This document shows, in pieces, positions 1 through 40,744 of a stretch of 64,000 bases of DNA. The DNA comes from Hallerella succinigenes (GTDB taxonomy: Bacteria; Fibrobacterota; Fibrobacteria; Fibrobacterales; Fibrobacteraceae): the NCBI RefSeq assembly GCF_002797675.1, contig NZ_PGEX01000001.1:62001-126000 (forward strand), written 5' to 3'. Within the stretch, counting starts at the first letter, position 1; each line of letters begins with the position of its first letter. The notes under the pieces are model-generated. The model was not told the DNA's origin and did not search any database. It saw only the letters and a list, made by a program, of their open reading frames with translations. A program made the translations under genes and the position numbers.

Positions 1-2459
1 AGAGGTTCGAGGAGCATGGCCTGCTTGACGAGGTTCTTGTTGACCTTGGTACGGTCGAATTCCGGGAGATCGACGAAGAAGTCAAAGCACTTGCCTTCCT
101 GAACCTTGATGGGTTCTTGCGGCACCATGTTGATGGCCTTTTTGGTCTCGTCGGCCTTGTCCTTAGCCGGGCAAGCCTGAACGCAGACGCCACAACCCGT
201 ACAGTCGTAGCTCGACACAGAAATAGCGAACACGGCTTCGGCAAAATCGGTCTTGTAACCCTTGGCAACCGTGTACTTGAAGCCTTCCGGAGCATTTGCG
301 ACAGAGGACTTGTCTACAACTTTCTGGCGAATGGCTGCATGCGGGCACACCATGGCACACTTACCGCACTGCAAGCAGACTTCCGGATTCCAGGACGGGA
401 TCATCAAAGCAAGATCACGCTTTTCGTACTTCGTCGTACCGGTCGGGAAAACACCGTCCACCGGCATCTTCGAAACCGGAAGCTTTTCGCCGTTGCCCTT
501 GATGATTTCTGCGGTGACTTCGTTCACGAACTTCGGAGCGTCGCCGTGGATCGGAGCACGGAATTCCTTGGTGCTGGTGACAGTAGCAGGAACCTTGACT
601 TCGAACAGGTTAGCAAGAGAGGCGTCGATAGCGTCCCAGTTCTTCTGGACCACTTCCTGACCCTTCTTAGCGTAAGTCTTTTCGGCGTACTTCTTGATGT
701 ACTTGATGGCGGTTTCGGCATCGAGCACGTTACCGAGCTTAGAGAAGAAGCAGGTCTGCATCACGGTGTTGATACGGCGGCCCATGCCGGTCTTCGCGGC
801 AACGGCGTAAGCGTCGATCACGTACACCTTGAGGTGCTTCTTGATGATTTCTTCCTGCACCGGACGCGGGAAAGTATCCCACACGGTGTCGGCGGAGTGC
901 GGAGTGTTCACGAGGAAGGTTGCGCCATCCTTCGCGTACTTCAGCATGTCCACGGACTCGAGATGCGGAGTATGGTGGCAAGCGACAAAGTCCGCCTGAT
1001 TTTCTTCGATCAAGTACGGAGCGTCGATGATGCTCTTACCGAAGCGCAAGTGCGAAGTCGTCATCGAACCAGACTTCTTCGAGTCGTATACGAAATAGCC
1101 CTGTGCATAGTTTGCGGTTTCGTTACCGATAATCTTGATGGAGTTCTTGTTCGCTCCCACGGTACCGTCGGAACCGAGACCGAAGAACATCGCCTGGAAA
1201 AACGTATTATCCAAATGGAAGTTCGGATCCACGTCCAAGCTCAAGTGCGTCACGTCGTCGATGATGCCCACCGTGAAACGGTCCTTCGGAGCATCCTTGG
1301 CGAGTTCGTCGTATACAGCCTTCACCATCGCCGGCGTAAATTCCTTCGACGAAAGACCGTAGCGTCCGCCGATGATGCGCGGCAAAGTAATTTCGCCGTT
1401 CATCGCCGCAGAAGAGATCGCCGTGATGACGTCCTGCAAGAGCGGTTCGCCAGCGGAACCCGGTTCCTTGCAGCGGTCGAGAACCGCAATCTTCTTCACG
1501 GTTTTCGGGAGAGCCTTCACAAGCTGTTCTGCCGGGAACGGACGGAACAAGCGCACGATCAAAAGACCGAGTTTTTCGCCCTTCTTGTTCAAATATTCAA
1601 TGGTATCCTTTACAGTCGAAGCAGCAGAACCCATAACAACAATCACGCGTTCTGCATCCGGAGCACCGACGTAATCCACCAAGTGGTACTGCCTGCCGGT
1701 ATAGCTTGCCACCTTGTCCATATACTTCTGGACAATCTGCGGGAAGGCGTTGTAATACGGGTTGACCGTTTCGCGACCCTGGAAGTAAACGTCCGGGTTC
1801 TGAGCGGTACCGCGCATGGTCGGACGATCCGGCGTTAAAGCGCGGTCGCGGCATGCCTTCACATACTTGTCATCAATCACCTGACGAATCACATCGTCGT
1901 CCAAGGCTTCGATTTTCATCACTTCATGGCTCGTACGGAAGCCGTCAAAGAAGTGCATCGTCGGAATGCGTCCTTCAAGAGTAGACGCATGAGCCACGAG
2001 GGCCATATCCTGACATTCCTGCACCGAAGCAGAGCAGAGCATCGCAAAGCCCGTCTGACGACAAGCCATCACGTCGGAATGATCCCCAAAGATCGAAAGG
2101 CCCTGTGCGGCAAGAGAACGAGCCGTCACATGGAATACGGTCGGAGTGAGTTCGCCCGCAATCTTGTACATGTTCGGAATCATCAAGAGCAAGCCCTGAG
2201 ACGCTGTAAAGGTCGTCGTCAAAGCACCCGCCTGCAAAGCTCCGTGCACGGTACCAGCGGCACCGCCCTCGGATTGCATTTCAAACACACGGGGAACCTG
2301 TCCCCAGATATTTTTCTTACCAGCCGCGCTCCAGTTATCCGCATGTTCAGCCATAGGGCTTGACGGAGTAATCGGGTAGATTGCCGCTACCTCGCTTACC
2401 TGAAAAGCGACACGAGCAGTCGCTTCATTGCCATCGACTGCAATCATTTTTTTTGCCAT
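1..2459 (-). CDS. nifJ: Pyruvate:ferredoxin (flavodoxin) oxidoreductase, N-terminal part, cut by window edge
   Basis: The enzyme oxidises pyruvate and CoA to acetyl-CoA and CO2 and reduces ferredoxin or flavodoxin, the central step of anaerobic sugar fermentation in the cytoplasm. About 819 codons are present; the family is usually near 1,180 residues, so the C-terminal third with the TPP/Mg domain lies beyond base 1. The start MAKKMIAVDGNEA is typical, and GGAG sits just upstream of the ATG at 2459. Visible features are the N-terminal pyruvate-binding region (YPITPSSPMAEHAD), and two 4Fe-4S clusters, CLQCGKCAMVCP near residue 695 and CTGCGVCVQACP near residue 753, placed as in single-chain PFOR. 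The 188 bases upstream are AT-rich and contain an imperfect inverted repeat near 2487-2510. The call is firm; truncation is only from the window edge. Confidence 0.96.
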   Translation of the reverse strand, partial: MAKKMIAVDGNEATARVAFQVSEVAAIYPITPSSPMAEHADNWSAAGKKNIWGQVPRVFEMQSEGGAAGTVHGALQAGALTTTFTASQGLLLMIPNMYKIAGELTPTVFHVTARSLAAQGLSIFGDHSDVMACRQTGFAMLCSASVQECQDMALVAHASTLEGRIPTMHFFDGFRTSHEVMKIEALDDDVIRQVIDDKYVKACRDRALTPDRPTMRGTAQNPDVYFQGRETVNPYYNAFPQIVQKYMDKVASYTGRQYHLVDYVGAPDAERVIVVMGSAASTVKDTIEYLNKKGEKLGLLIVRLFRPFPAEQLVKALPKTVKKIAVLDRCKEPGSAGEPLLQDVITAISSAAMNGEITLPRIIGGRYGLSSKEFTPAMVKAVYDELAKDAPKDRFTVGIIDDVTHLSLDVDPNFHLDNTFFQAMFFGLGSDGTVGANKNSIKIIGNETANYAQGYFVYDSKKSGSMTTSHLRFGKSIIDAPYLIEENQADFVACHHTPHLESVDMLKYAKDGATFLVNTPHSADTVWDTFPRPVQEEIIKKHLKVYVIDAYAVAAKTGMGRRINTVMQTCFFSKLGNVLDAETAIKYIKKYAEKTYAKKGQEVVQKNWDAIDASLANLFEVKVPATVTSTKEFRAPIHGDAPKFVNEVTAEIIKGNGEKLPVSKMPVDGVFPTGTTKYEKRDLALMIPSWNPEVCLQCGKCAMVCPHAAIRQKVVDKSSVANAPEGFKYTVAKGYKTDFAEAVFAISVSSYDCTGCGVCVQACPAKDKADETKKAINMVPQEPIKVQEGKCFDFFVDLPEFDRTKVNKNLVKQAMLLEP

Positions 2460-5134: not shown

Positions 5135-6694
5135 TTACTTGTACAGCAAGTTCACGCCGCAGAAGATCGCGCGCATGTTCGCCTTGAGCGTATCGCTCGA
5201 AACGCCACGGCCTTCGACTTCCTTGTCGTTCACCTTCAGCACAATTCGGCTCAATCCACGACCCGCCCAGAGCTTATCTTTTTCAGGCACCACGAGCTGA
5301 CGGTACTTGACGAGTTCCACCGGCATGCCGATTTCTCGCATCAAGATAAGAGCCGCTTCCACAGGACCTTCCGCCGTAACGGACTTTACAATCGCTTCGC
5401 CGTCCTTCTTGAAGTGGAAGATAAAGCGGTTTTCGTCCGGAATCACTTCGATGTTGTTAAAGATCAAATGTCCGTTCACATTGATGAAGTGCTCACGGAA
5501 AATATCAAGGACGCGATCTGCGGACAGTTCGCCTTCCTTTTCACTCGCCGCCTTGAGAATCGGCTGCAGTTCTGCCGCCTCTGCGAGAGAGAGCTTGTAA
5601 CCGAACTTGGTCACAATTTCATAAACCGCGGTACGGCCGCTCTGGCTTGTGAAGCCCAGAGAATCGTTCTGATGGCGACCGATCATCGAGTAGTCGATCG
5701 GACGGTAGGCACCCTTTTTCAGGTCCTTCGTCTTGCTTGCGCCGTCCTGATGAATGCCGCTACGATGCACAATAGCTTCGGCACCGATCAGCGGTGCTCG
5801 GCTGTAAATGTTCACGCCCGACCACTGCGAAATGAGAATGGCCGTTTCGTAAATGCGGTCAAGATGAATATCCACAGGCGTTCCTGAATTCGCGAGAGCC
5901 ACGACGACTTCATAGAAGTTCGTGTTACCGCAACGTTCACCGAGGCCGTTCAAAGAGACTTCCAACTGATTTGCGCCCGCATAGAAACTTTCCACGGTTG
6001 CAGCCGTCGCCATACCGAGGTCGTTATGGCAGTGAACAGAAATCGTGATATTCTTCGGCAGAGCGTCATATACCTGCTTGATCTGGTTCACGTACAGAGC
6101 CGGACGGTAACGTTCCACCGTATTCGGCAGGTTGATCGTCGTCGCACCGGCTTCGACCACAGCCTTCAATTCATCGATCACAAAATCCATGTTTTCGAGG
6201 CAGTCGCCAAAGTGTTCCACGCTGAATTCTACGTCACCCTTGTCACCGACCAAAGACTTGGCAAGCTTCACGCAGCTGACAGCGCGTTCCTTCACCTGTT
6301 CCGGGGTCATGTGCAAAACGTGTTCCATCGAAAGCGGGCTGCCTGCGATAAACGTATGAATACGCGGATGCGGAGCGTACTTCACCGCATCCCAGCAACG
6401 CTGAATGTCACTCGGTACGCAACGGGCCAAGCCAGAAACGACAATGTTCTGAGCTTCGACATTGCCCTCTTCCGCCATCTGGGCGGTGAGCTTAGCCAGT
6501 TCCTTAACCGATTCAAAGTCCATTTCGGAAGAAGCCGGGAAGCCGACTTCTGCACCCTGGACACCGAGCTTCAAAAGTTGCAGATAAACGTCTTTTTTCT
6601 GTGCATTGTTCCACGGATTCGGCAGAGCCTGATTTCCGTCACGCAGAGTCACGTCATAAATAAACGGTCTTCTCTGATTTTTTTCTTCAGTCAT
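5135..6694 (-). CDS. leuA: 2-isopropylmalate synthase
   Basis: Condenses acetyl-CoA and 2-oxoisovalerate to 2-isopropylmalate, the first committed step of leucine synthesis. With the start at 6694 (AAGGAG six bases upstream) it has 519 residues: an HMGL-like TIM barrel with YDVTLRDGNQAL near the start, SVHCHNDLGMATAATVE and LNGLGERCGNTNF, then a communicating region with HRSGIHQDGASK, and a C-terminal LeuA allosteric domain of about 120 residues. That last domain suggests leucine feedback control. The related citramalate synthase has a similar fold, but the leucine-rich leader upstream supports leuA. The track of sequence upstream holds a candidate attenuator (6771-6960). Confidence 0.93.
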   Translation of the reverse strand: MTEEKNQRRPFIYDVTLRDGNQALPNPWNNAQKKDVYLQLLKLGVQGAEVGFPASSEMDFESVKELAKLTAQMAEEGNVEAQNIVVSGLARCVPSDIQRCWDAVKYAPHPRIHTFIAGSPLSMEHVLHMTPEQVKERAVSCVKLAKSLVGDKGDVEFSVEHFGDCLENMDFVIDELKAVVEAGATTINLPNTVERYRPALYVNQIKQVYDALPKNITISVHCHNDLGMATAATVESFYAGANQLEVSLNGLGERCGNTNFYEVVVALANSGTPVDIHLDRIYETAILISQWSGVNIYSRAPLIGAEAIVHRSGIHQDGASKTKDLKKGAYRPIDYSMIGRHQNDSLGFTSQSGRTAVYEIVTKFGYKLSLAEAAELQPILKAASEKEGELSADRVLDIFREHFINVNGHLIFNNIEVIPDENRFIFHFKKDGEAIVKSVTAEGPVEAALILMREIGMPVELVKYRQLVVPEKDKLWAGRGLSRIVLKVNDKEVEGRGVSSDTLKANMRAIFCGVNLLYK

Positions 6695-6770
6695 TTTGAT
6701 CTCCTTGCCGCACCTTCTATGCCGCAAAGTCCTTTATATTCTTGCACAAAAACATGAGAATTTTATGCAA

Positions 6771-6802
6771 AACAAAAGACCCGCGCCAAGAAAGAGCGGG
6801 CC
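6771..6802 (-). terminator. Candidate attenuator terminator upstream of leuA
   Basis: On the minus strand GGCCCGC (6802-6796) pairs with GCGGGTC (6784-6778), seven pairs with one G-T, around an 11-base loop, followed by TTTTGTTTT. It lies between a short leucine-rich reading frame (6844-6924) and leuA. The placement is that of an attenuator, though it could also simply end transcription from the upstream FISUMP gene. Confidence 0.65.
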
Positions 6803-6843
6803 ATTTTTGTTTAAAACTAACGTTTCGCGTTTAAACCAAAAAC

Positions 6844-6924
6844 CTATCCAAAAACGGATACCGCTCCAGAGCTAAAACCCGGAAGTCGATCGTTTAGAAG
6901 GTTTAGGATCAAAGTCGTTCTCAT
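6844..6924 (-). CDS. Candidate leucine leader peptide of leuA (26 aa)
   Basis: A 26-codon reading frame, ATG at 6924 and TAG at 6844-6846, begins MRTTLILNLLNDRLPGF. Five leucines occur within its first 14 residues, four of them in LILNLL, and are read from TTG, CTA, CTT, CTA and CTT codons. It stands between a good promoter and a GC-rich terminator hairpin in front of leuA, the arrangement of leader-peptide attenuation: scarce leucyl-tRNA would stall the ribosome here and prevent the terminator. An AT-rich inverted repeat (GTTTAAA / TTTAAAC) between the peptide and the terminator could be the alternative fold. There is no Shine-Dalgarno; the start is seven bases after the -10 box. It is too short to be sure by itself. 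Confidence 0.55.
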   Translation of the reverse strand: MRTTLILNLLNDRLPGFSSGAVSVFG

Positions 6925-6931
6925 ATTTACA

Positions 6932-6960
6932 AATGTAGTAAGAATTCTTTCATTTGGCAA
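6932..6960 (-). promoter_or_regulatory. Promoter of the leuA leader
   Basis: Minus-strand TTGCCA (6960-6955), a 17-base spacer and TACATT (6937-6932) match a housekeeping promoter well. The expected start of transcription falls at or just before the ATG of the leader peptide. It begins directly after the stop of the FISUMP gene ending at 6970. Confidence 0.55.
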
Positions 6961-6969
6961 GCAAAATCT

Positions 6970-7638
6970 TTAATCTTTCAGACAACGGACCGAAAGGCCG
7001 GAATCCTTGAAGGAATTGCCGAATCCCATCGTATTGATCATACCGCTCAATGTTCGGATATAGGCAGTCGTCGTGGTTTCCGACTCACGTGTCCAATAAT
7101 AAGCCTTGAAACCCAAATCGGAAAACGCGCGGAAATAGTAACGCCCCGAAGCAAGAGCGTTAAAGCCCAAAACATCATTTCCCGGCGTCACCAAGTCCGA
7201 ATCCCACGATTCCGTACTCCGCAAAGAGCTGTTTTCATCCCCCGCGTTTTCAAGAGCATAAGCGGCTAAGGAATCCCATTCGTCTTGGCTCGGCAAATGA
7301 AAGCCATCGGGGCAAGCCTTCACAGCGGAGCTCCATTCATAAAGGCGCCCATAAACATCGCAATTCGAAGCGCCGTCATCGTAACACCAGGATGCGTTCA
7401 TGCAGTAATTCATATTTTCGGCAAGCCAAGTCTGGCTTCCGATTTGGACTGTCCTATAAACATTCCCGTCTCGGGCATCACAGATCGTTTCGGCTTCAAG
7501 CGAATCCGGGCAAACAAGTGCCTTTGGACAAGAAACGCTCGAAGCTTCTTCCGCGATTTCTTCGGCAGTCGAAAAATCACACGCCCCAAGGATCAAAGCA
7601 GCTAATCCGCACAGAATCTGAATTTTCGAAGTCTTCAT
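6970..7638 (-). CDS. FISUMP-domain lipoprotein
   Basis: A 222-residue protein with a lipoprotein signal (LILGAC, Cys near residue 20) and one FISUMP domain (TIGR02145): CDARDGNVYRTVQIGSQTWL, AENMNY, SWCYDDGASNCDVYGRLYEW, CPDGFHLPSQDEWDSL and the closing LSVRCLKD. The domain is probably displayed on the cell surface; its function is unknown. It lacks the long poly-serine linker of the three FISUMP proteins at 27-33 kb, and its C-terminal patch does not show their NNC codon pattern (it has ACC ACG ACG ACT codons, for example). It therefore serves as a control for the DGR idea. Confidence 0.85.
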   Translation of the reverse strand: MKTSKIQILCGLAALILGACDFSTAEEIAEEASSVSCPKALVCPDSLEAETICDARDGNVYRTVQIGSQTWLAENMNYCMNASWCYDDGASNCDVYGRLYEWSSAVKACPDGFHLPSQDEWDSLAAYALENAGDENSSLRSTESWDSDLVTPGNDVLGFNALASGRYYFRAFSDLGFKAYYWTRESETTTTAYIRTLSGMINTMGFGNSFKDSGLSVRCLKD

Positions 7639-39082: not shown

Positions 39083-40744
39083 ATGAATGCGGCTGAAATT
39101 TTAATCCGTTGTTTAGAGAATGAAGGTGTCCAGTATATATTCGGGATTCCCGGCGAAGAAACCCTGGAAATCATGGAGGCCATCAAGAACTCCTCAATCC
39201 AGTTTATAACGGTGCGCCATGAACAGGGTGCGGCTTTTATGGCCGATGTCTGCGGACGTTTGACCGGCAAGGCGGGTGTCTGCCTTTCGACCCTTGGACC
39301 GGGAGCCACCAATCTGGTGACGGGTGTCGCCGATGCCAATTCCGACGGCGCTCCCCTAGTGGCGATTACGGGCCAGGTCGGCACGGAGCGCATGCATTTG
39401 ACAAGCCATCAGTACCTGGATCTCGTGAACATGTTTACGCCGATCACCAAAAGATCGAAACAGATCGTACGACCGGATACGGTAAACGAAATCGTTCGCA
39501 TCGCTTTCAAGTACGCGGAAGCCGAAAAACCGGGCGCTTGCCACATTGACCTTCCCTGCAATATCGCAGCCCAGGAAGTCTCTAACGAGATTGCCCAGAT
39601 TCCGCTGAAGCATCACCGTGAAAACCGTCGCATCGCAAGCAATGAAGCGATTCTCAAAGCGGCGGAGCTGATCCGTTCCGCAGAACGGCCCGTGATCCTC
39701 GCCGGGCATTCCGCCGTTCGAAATCAGGCCTCCAAGACTCTCGCAAAATTTGCCGAAAAAACAAAGATTCCTGTCATCAGCACGATGATGGCCAAAGGCA
39801 TCATTCCTTGCAACAGTCCGTATTCCCTTTGGTGCATTGGCATTCCGCAAAAAGACTACCCCAACTATGCGATTGAAAAAGCGGACCTGGTGATTGCCGT
39901 GGGCTATGACATTGTGGAATACGCTCCTGTCAAATGGAATCCGAACGGCGATAAAAGAATCGTCCACATCGACGAAACCCCGAACCATGTGAACAAATTC
40001 TACCAGCCCGAAGAAGAAGTCATTGGGCACATCACGGAATCGCTGCTTGCCTTGGAAAAACTTTGCAAGAACCGTGAAGAGCCGGAATGGGCCTTTGACA
40101 TTCGACAGAAGATGGTGAACGATCAGTCTATGTTCGACGATTGCGACAGTTTTCCGCCGAAGCCCCAAAAAGTTCTACACGACATTCGACGCGTGATGGG
40201 CGAAGAAGATATCCTGATTTCGGACGTGGGCGCCCATAAAATGTGGATCGCCCGAGAATACCACTGTTACTATCCGAACACCTGCATTATTTCGAACGGT
40301 TTTGCAACGATGGGAATCGCCGTGCCGGGCGCTCTTGCCGCCAAGCTTTTGAATCCGAACAAGAAAGTTCTTGCCGTGTCCGGGGACGGCGGATTTATGA
40401 TGAACAGTCAAGAACTGGAAACCGCAAGACGTTACCACCTGCCGTTTGTCACGCTTATCTTTACCGATGCCAATTACGGACTCATCAAATGGAAACAGGA
40501 AGAACGCTACGGCGAAAGCTATGCGATCGGATTTTCGAATCCGGACTTTGTGAAATACGCGGAAAGCCTGTACTTGAAAGGCTACCGCATTGAAAAAGCG
40601 GCAGACATTATCCCGACCTTGGAAGAAGCCTTTAGACAAGACGTGCCTTGTATCATCGAGTGTCCGATCGACTATGCGGCGAACATGGAACTTTCCGCTC
40701 ATTTGAAGAACGATTTGCCGAAGGAGATGGCGGACGAATTTTGA
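39083..40744 (+). CDS. Acetolactate synthase-like TPP enzyme (large subunit)
   Basis: Condenses two pyruvate to 2-acetolactate, the first step to valine and leucine. 553 residues with the three domains of the POX/AHAS fold: FGIPGEETLEIMEAIK and RHEQGAAFMADVCGRLTGKAG (Pyr domain with catalytic Glu), a central domain, and the TPP-binding GDGGFMMNSQELETA with NYGLI. It belongs to the stand-alone acetolactate synthases; no ilvN regulatory gene lies nearby, and SHQYLDLVNMFTPITK differs from anabolic IlvB. Other TPP decarboxylases are possible but less likely. An SGNH hydrolase follows after 41 bases, without obvious relation. Confidence 0.8.
   Translation: MNAAEILIRCLENEGVQYIFGIPGEETLEIMEAIKNSSIQFITVRHEQGAAFMADVCGRLTGKAGVCLSTLGPGATNLVTGVADANSDGAPLVAITGQVGTERMHLTSHQYLDLVNMFTPITKRSKQIVRPDTVNEIVRIAFKYAEAEKPGACHIDLPCNIAAQEVSNEIAQIPLKHHRENRRIASNEAILKAAELIRSAERPVILAGHSAVRNQASKTLAKFAEKTKIPVISTMMAKGIIPCNSPYSLWCIGIPQKDYPNYAIEKADLVIAVGYDIVEYAPVKWNPNGDKRIVHIDETPNHVNKFYQPEEEVIGHITESLLALEKLCKNREEPEWAFDIRQKMVNDQSMFDDCDSFPPKPQKVLHDIRRVMGEEDILISDVGAHKMWIAREYHCYYPNTCIISNGFATMGIAVPGALAAKLLNPNKKVLAVSGDGGFMMNSQELETARRYHLPFVTLIFTDANYGLIKWKQEERYGESYAIGFSNPDFVKYAESLYLKGYRIEKAADIIPTLEEAFRQDVPCIIECPIDYAANMELSAHLKNDLPKEMADEF

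Follow-up and report, generated by a model that had tools for sequence, protein, structure and literature searches.

The leu leader of Escherichia coli is translated from a 5' untranslated region, whereas the leader in front of leuA of Fibrobacterota, which is described here, is predicted to be leaderless. Apart from this, the element has a Leu-rich frame, alternative hairpins, an intrinsic terminator and the presumed mode of action in common with Rfam family RF00512 (Leu_leader), the leader of the proteobacterial leu operon. It is not a member of that family, as the locus reaches 12.6 bits, on the plus (opposite) strand, against a gathering cut-off of 50. Leaderless attenuators are also said to exist in mycobacteria, where Canestrari in 2020 reportedly described polycysteine attenuators. 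These likewise consist of a leaderless short open reading frame with a sensing run, but one of cysteine, and the run of an amino acid in such a mycobacterial frame is stated to report the supply of that amino acid (PMC4633059). In a further study (PMC1262725), leaders before cys operons are described as having no obvious terminators. The actinobacterial LEU element before leuA is described there as a Leu-run leader peptide with a pseudoknot, in the base stem of which the Leu codons are paired with the Shine-Dalgarno box of leuA. Going by this description both elements have a Leu-run leader, and they differ in that the actinobacterial one is a pseudoknot and the one before leuA of Fibrobacterota an antiterminator opposed to a terminator. 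Leaderless peptides are also described in Streptomyces lividans, namely LeuL1 before leuA, LeuL2 before leuS and TrpL1 before trpE; LeuL2 and TrpL1 are followed by a hairpin and a U stretch, and LeuL1 is described as having no typical Rho-independent terminator (PMC8079986). Short Leu- and Trp-rich leaderless peptides (predicted in our case) are common to S. lividans and Fibrobacterota, but by that description a typical terminator before leuA is present only in the latter, and the phyla differ. Our searches of the open-licence literature for Fibrobacterota and Fibrobacter returned no report of an element of this sort. Since the presumed mode of action is that of the classical attenuators, and since leaderless Leu and Trp leaders are known in Actinobacteria, this is thus a known kind of element in another phylum.

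The window, i.e., the whole analyzed stretch of 64,000 nucleotides of the Hallerella succinigenes genome, contains leuA on the minus strand, preceded by the following features.

6955..6960, minus strand: -35 hexamer TTGCCA, from the promoter scan; TTGCC-like in most of the 43 aligned representatives
6932..6937, minus strand: -10 hexamer TACATT, 17 nt from the -35 hexamer, ending 7 nt 5' of the leader ATG
6924 +/- 1, minus strand: predicted transcription start, from the -10 spacing
6844..6924, minus strand: leader frame MRTTLILNLLNDRLPGFSSGAVSVFG, 26 codons plus stop, with five Leu codons
6912-6910, 6906-6904, 6900-6898, 6897-6895 and 6885-6883, minus strand: Leu codons of the leader
6881..6918, minus strand: segment 1, which with its partner 6867-6825 gives hairpin 1:2 across most of the leader frame (from the fold; duplex energy best among 41 partners)
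6861..6867, minus strand: segment 2, GGAGCGG, 5' side of the antiterminator, within the leader frame
6809..6836, minus strand: AT-rich inverted repeat, GTTTAAA (6836-6830) and TTTAAAC (6815-6809)
6793..6799, minus strand: segment 3, CCGCTCT, 3' side of the antiterminator and part of the terminator 5' arm
6778..6802, minus strand: GC-rich terminator hairpin of segments 3 and 4, from the fold
6769..6777, minus strand: T-rich tract TTTTGTTTT, directly 3' of the terminator hairpin
6701..6706, minus strand: Shine-Dalgarno-like AAGGAG of leuA
5135..6694, minus strand: leuA, 2-isopropylmalate synthase of the LeuA2 type, ATG at 6694 (NF042434, 515.6 bits, cut-off 500)
5119-5088: terminator-like hairpin behind leuA

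The promoter TTGCCA-17-TACATT, the 26-codon Leu frame and the GC-rich terminator with its T-run thus lie in order before leuA, exactly as a preliminary description of this DNA had it. The promoter scan over 2 kb returned two promoter-like sites with 1.5 expected from shuffles, which is weak alone, but the promoter of the leuA leader is conserved in relatives, where TATATT is the most frequent form of the -10 hexamer. The strict pattern CTTGCC-17..19-TANATT-6/7-ATG has a single match in the 3.1 Mb genome, which is the leuA leader site, and the reversed control has none. The stretch from 6924 to 6769 folds with a z-score of -2.55 against shuffles, two of 200 of which fold as well. The terminator at 6802-6778 was seen by folding and in the sequence and is absent from the list of a simple terminator scan.

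It is very likely that this region is a ribosome-mediated transcription attenuator with a leaderless leader, which lowers leuA expression when charged tRNA-Leu is plentiful. Start site, leader translation, termination and leucine response, as we infer them, would be linked as follows. RNA polymerase would start at the A of the leader AUG, and the ribosome would load directly on the 5'-terminal AUG by leaderless initiation. With plentiful leucine it would reach the stop codon and cover segment 2, so that the 3:4 terminator could form and transcription would end near 6769. In a shortage of charged tRNA-Leu, it would stall on the Leu codons and occupy segment 1, so that segments 2 and 3 could pair and block the terminator, and leuA would be transcribed and then translated from its own ribosome-binding site. 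If no ribosome is present, hairpin 1:2 would form and lead to termination by default.

Among 167 genomes of the phylum Fibrobacterota, 113 have a LeuA match with an E-value of at most 1e-100. From 117 LeuA places 113 regions were used, the four omitted being three mid-gene fragments and one gene 15 nt from the contig start; together with the distant homologue L020 this gave 114 upstream regions. Two of these were too short to judge (L112 with 0 nt and L014 with 95 nt upstream), which leaves 112, namely 111 of one LeuA type in Fibrobacterota and the one distant homologue. Under a loose criterion that accepts any frame of 8-40 codons in which two or more Leu fall within 8 codons, 107 regions have a candidate. 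L106 and L111 were set aside and counted as having no leader because their hexamer and hairpin are poor, although they satisfy the loose criterion, so that a Leu-rich leader precedes leuA in 105 of the 112 judgeable regions. These leaders are 11-27 codons long, e.g., MRKILNLRLLLCIAHGARF and MKKTLNLLLLLRLACGARF or, from a more distant family, MSFATHNAQLLLLGLIG, and 103 of them have at least four Leu in 8 codons. A hairpin with a T-rich tract between leader and leuA was found by script among the regions listed, with L020 doubtful; this distant homologue has no good 2:3 pairing and no clear T-tract. The gene upstream of leuA varies among relatives (a tRNA-like stretch lies ahead of L008, for example), and leader and terminator stay with leuA. 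The preliminary description had proposed a comparison with other Fibrobacter genomes as a check, and among Fibrobacterota frame, Leu run, terminator and promoter are kept together before leuA; a terminator retained where the frame is lost, which had been named as the pattern speaking against attenuation, is not what is seen, as the frame is conserved alongside it. Its reading of the layout as ribosome-mediated attenuation is thus supported by genome comparison. No leader is present in seven of the 112 regions, all from genera g6 and g13 (L012, L106, L107, L109, L110, L111 and L113); these genera retain leuA, and the element would therefore have been lost there or replaced.

A covariance model built from 27 sequences of family f1 gave 93 matches at an E-value of 1.5e-11 or better in 91 of the 111 genomes of the family, the 27 being among them by construction. 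Ninety of the 93 could be placed in front of leuA. The 17 genomes with no model match at all are 13 of g6 and g13, G011, and three with no LeuA match; in G011 a divergent leader was seen directly (L013). Four of the weak model matches (E-values from 3.8e-5 to 0.0098) were read (L315-L318) and rejected, as they resemble ordinary terminator hairpins with no Leu-rich frame. By eye, no such leader was seen at hisG and ilvB (G000:C1:360112) of the same genome or at an ilvB-like gene near position 39083 of the window, nor in about 500 nt at two loci of Gastranaerophilales that contain a LeuA relative.

The role of antiterminator falls to a segment of the GGAGCG type, which lies within the leader frame or at its end and can pair with the terminator 5' arm. 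Across 43 representatives, chosen by a similarity cut, the summed duplex energy of segments 2 and 3 is better for the own partners than for all 20,000 partner permutations, and within families 1 of 20,000 permutations (f1) and 55 of 20,000 (f3/f5) are as good; these figures are not probabilities, because the sequences are related and not independent. Compared with shuffled sequence, 28 of the 43 have at most 5 of 100 shuffles with an equally good 2:3 energy. For 17 of the 43, at least 12 foreign partners pair at least as well, as is to be expected where closely related sequences have the segment in common. Furthermore, in alignment A3, which comprises 27 rows of family f1 only and excludes L010, L013 and L108, at two positions of segment 3 the pairing with segment 2 is present in all 27 sequences and the pairing with segment 4 in only 13 and 19, respectively, and one 2:3 base pair is changed on both sides in seven of the 27. 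The letters also change while the pairing stays in families that are more distant, with GGAGTG/CACTCC in f3 and GGCGGGT/ACCCGCC in the f2 member L015. Hairpin 1:2, in which the leader start pairs with the region that begins at segment 2, has support across 41 representatives (L020 and L108 being excluded from this and from the Leu-geometry tests); none of 20,000 permutations is as good in f1, and in f3/f5 9,312 of 20,000 are, which gives no support there. The comparison of genomes thus bears out the frame with its Leu run, the promoter spacing and the pairings 2:3 and 3:4, and hairpin 1:2 in f1 only. As for the AT-rich inverted repeat that the preliminary description had included in the layout, it exists in the window, but its role as antiterminator could not be upheld, since of the seven relatives L001-L007 only L001-L004 have some form of it.

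The position of the Leu codons relative to segment 2 is consistent with a sensing ribosome. In the 41 representatives, codons 4-9 upstream of segment 2 are Leu in 150 of 246 cases and codons 0-2 upstream in 2 of 105. The distance from the start of the last Leu codon to segment 2 has a median of 13 nt (interquartile range 12-15, n = 41); in the window it is 18 nt. Relative to the first base of the leader stop codon, the start of segment 2 ranges from 24 nt upstream to 7 nt downstream. A ribosome covers about 12 nt past the first base of its A-site codon. With this spacing, segment 2 would therefore be free when the ribosome is stalled on most of the Leu codons and covered when it stands at the stop codon. 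The leaders are also rich in the Leu codon CTA. It accounts for 79 of the 222 Leu codons of the 43 leaders, and for 11 of 32 if only the six leaders from this genus are taken. In 464 kb of this genome, the only one from which background usage was taken, 3.7% of the 10,832 Leu codons are CTA. The bias may be due in part to pairing.

Transcription probably starts at the leader AUG, so that the leader would be translated from a leaderless RNA, a point that is absent from the preliminary description. In 99 of the 105 leaders a gap of 6-7 nt separates the -10 box from the leader ATG, a number favored by the way the ATG was chosen, and six have no -10 hexamer at this distance. Because the original choice favors a 6-7 nt gap, the spacing was recounted blind to the promoter, and TAnnnT was then found at gap 6 or 7 in 30 of the 43 representatives, every other gap occurring at most six times; 13 of the 43 do not have it. 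None of the 43 has a Shine-Dalgarno core (GGAG, GAGG or AGGA) within 20 nt 5' of the leader ATG, and 30 of them have one within 30 nt 5' of the LeuA match. Transcription starts about 7 nt past a -10 box, and the RNA would therefore begin at the leader AUG. The same attenuator could also work from an ordinary 5' untranslated region, either because transcription starts further upstream or because the marked ATG is wrong. The six leaders and, promoter-blind, the 13 representatives that deviate from the 6-7 nt spacing would fit this. It is nevertheless unlikely given the box at that distance in 99 of 105 leaders and, in the blind count, in 30 of 43 representatives, the absence of Shine-Dalgarno cores from all 43 and the over-representation of the same spacing before ordinary genes of the genome. 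Because of the -10 spacing and the absent Shine-Dalgarno core, the leader RNA thus probably starts at its AUG.

Beyond leuA, a -10-like hexamer lies 6-7 nt before the first ATG in 15 of 294 long frames of the window and L125-L144 (464 kb of the same genome), with at most 4 at any other single gap. Such starts are therefore not peculiar to the leuA leader site, and this genome seems to produce leaderless transcripts fairly often.

The sampled genome was scanned for short frames that have a -10-like hexamer 5-8 nt ahead of them and a terminator behind. The 16 hits, in which one site is counted twice, include the leuA leader as well as MNYSIITLNGNNWWWRTLKSEYAF before trpE (L146 1286-1430, G000:C1). 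Of 21 regions upstream of trpE, most of them taken from this family, 18 (L183-L198 and L202 among them) have a Trp-rich leader with WWW or RWWR; in the other three, all of family f8, no Trp leader was found. All 18 have a TTGCC- or TTGACA-like -35 hexamer, a -10-like hexamer (by a permissive definition) 6-8 nt ahead of the ATG and no Shine-Dalgarno core within 20 nt, a promoter geometry that looks leaderless as it does before leuA; a GC-rich hairpin, judged by eye, follows the leader. At 30 further trpE loci (L153-L182), a scan for close Trp pairs yielded one plausible leader by eye among the frames listed, which were four per locus at most. This possible Trp leader before trpE (L153, G166) has a GTG start after a TATATT-containing stretch and a GC-rich hairpin behind, and belongs to the most distant family seen.

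The choice between terminator and antiterminator is generally common to riboswitches, T-boxes and RNA-binding proteins as well, so that a ligand or factor other than the ribosome could operate the switch before leuA. This is very improbable. At gathering score, Rfam finds two tRNAs only in the whole window, and a permissive search of 6680-6980 gave seven matches that are all far under the cut-off (Thr_leader, for instance, with 22.6 of 55). Moreover, what is conserved are the Leu codons and how far they lie from segment 2, and in front of trpE the codons are Trp instead, which points to the ribosome. There is next to no likelihood that the hairpin is an ordinary terminator of the upstream FISUMP-domain gene, which ends at 6970 about 170 nt ahead of it, with a short frame present by chance and a separate promoter for leuA 3' of the hairpin (the other promoter-like site of the scan is at 6789-6760), since the upstream neighbor differs in relatives while leader and terminator remain with leuA, and since frame, Leu run and 2:3 pairing are conserved.

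A ribosome-mediated attenuator thus remains the preferred reading, and it adds a phylum of fiber-degrading bacteria to those in which leaderless leaders would serve ribosome-mediated attenuation. It provides a concrete model with predicted RNA ends and indicates leaderless translation as one mode of starting in Fibrobacter, and the link between leaderless initiation and attenuation becomes testable outside Actinobacteria. A wider and rather tentative idea is that leaderless attenuators are a general means by which Fibrobacterota control amino-acid genes (leuA and trpE at the least), that these attenuators arose separately from the actinobacterial ones, and that translation start is tied to transcription start, because the ribosome, probably as 70S, must load on the 5'-terminal AUG once this has emerged. 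If this is true, the switch would sense the status of ribosomes and initiation factors besides leucine.
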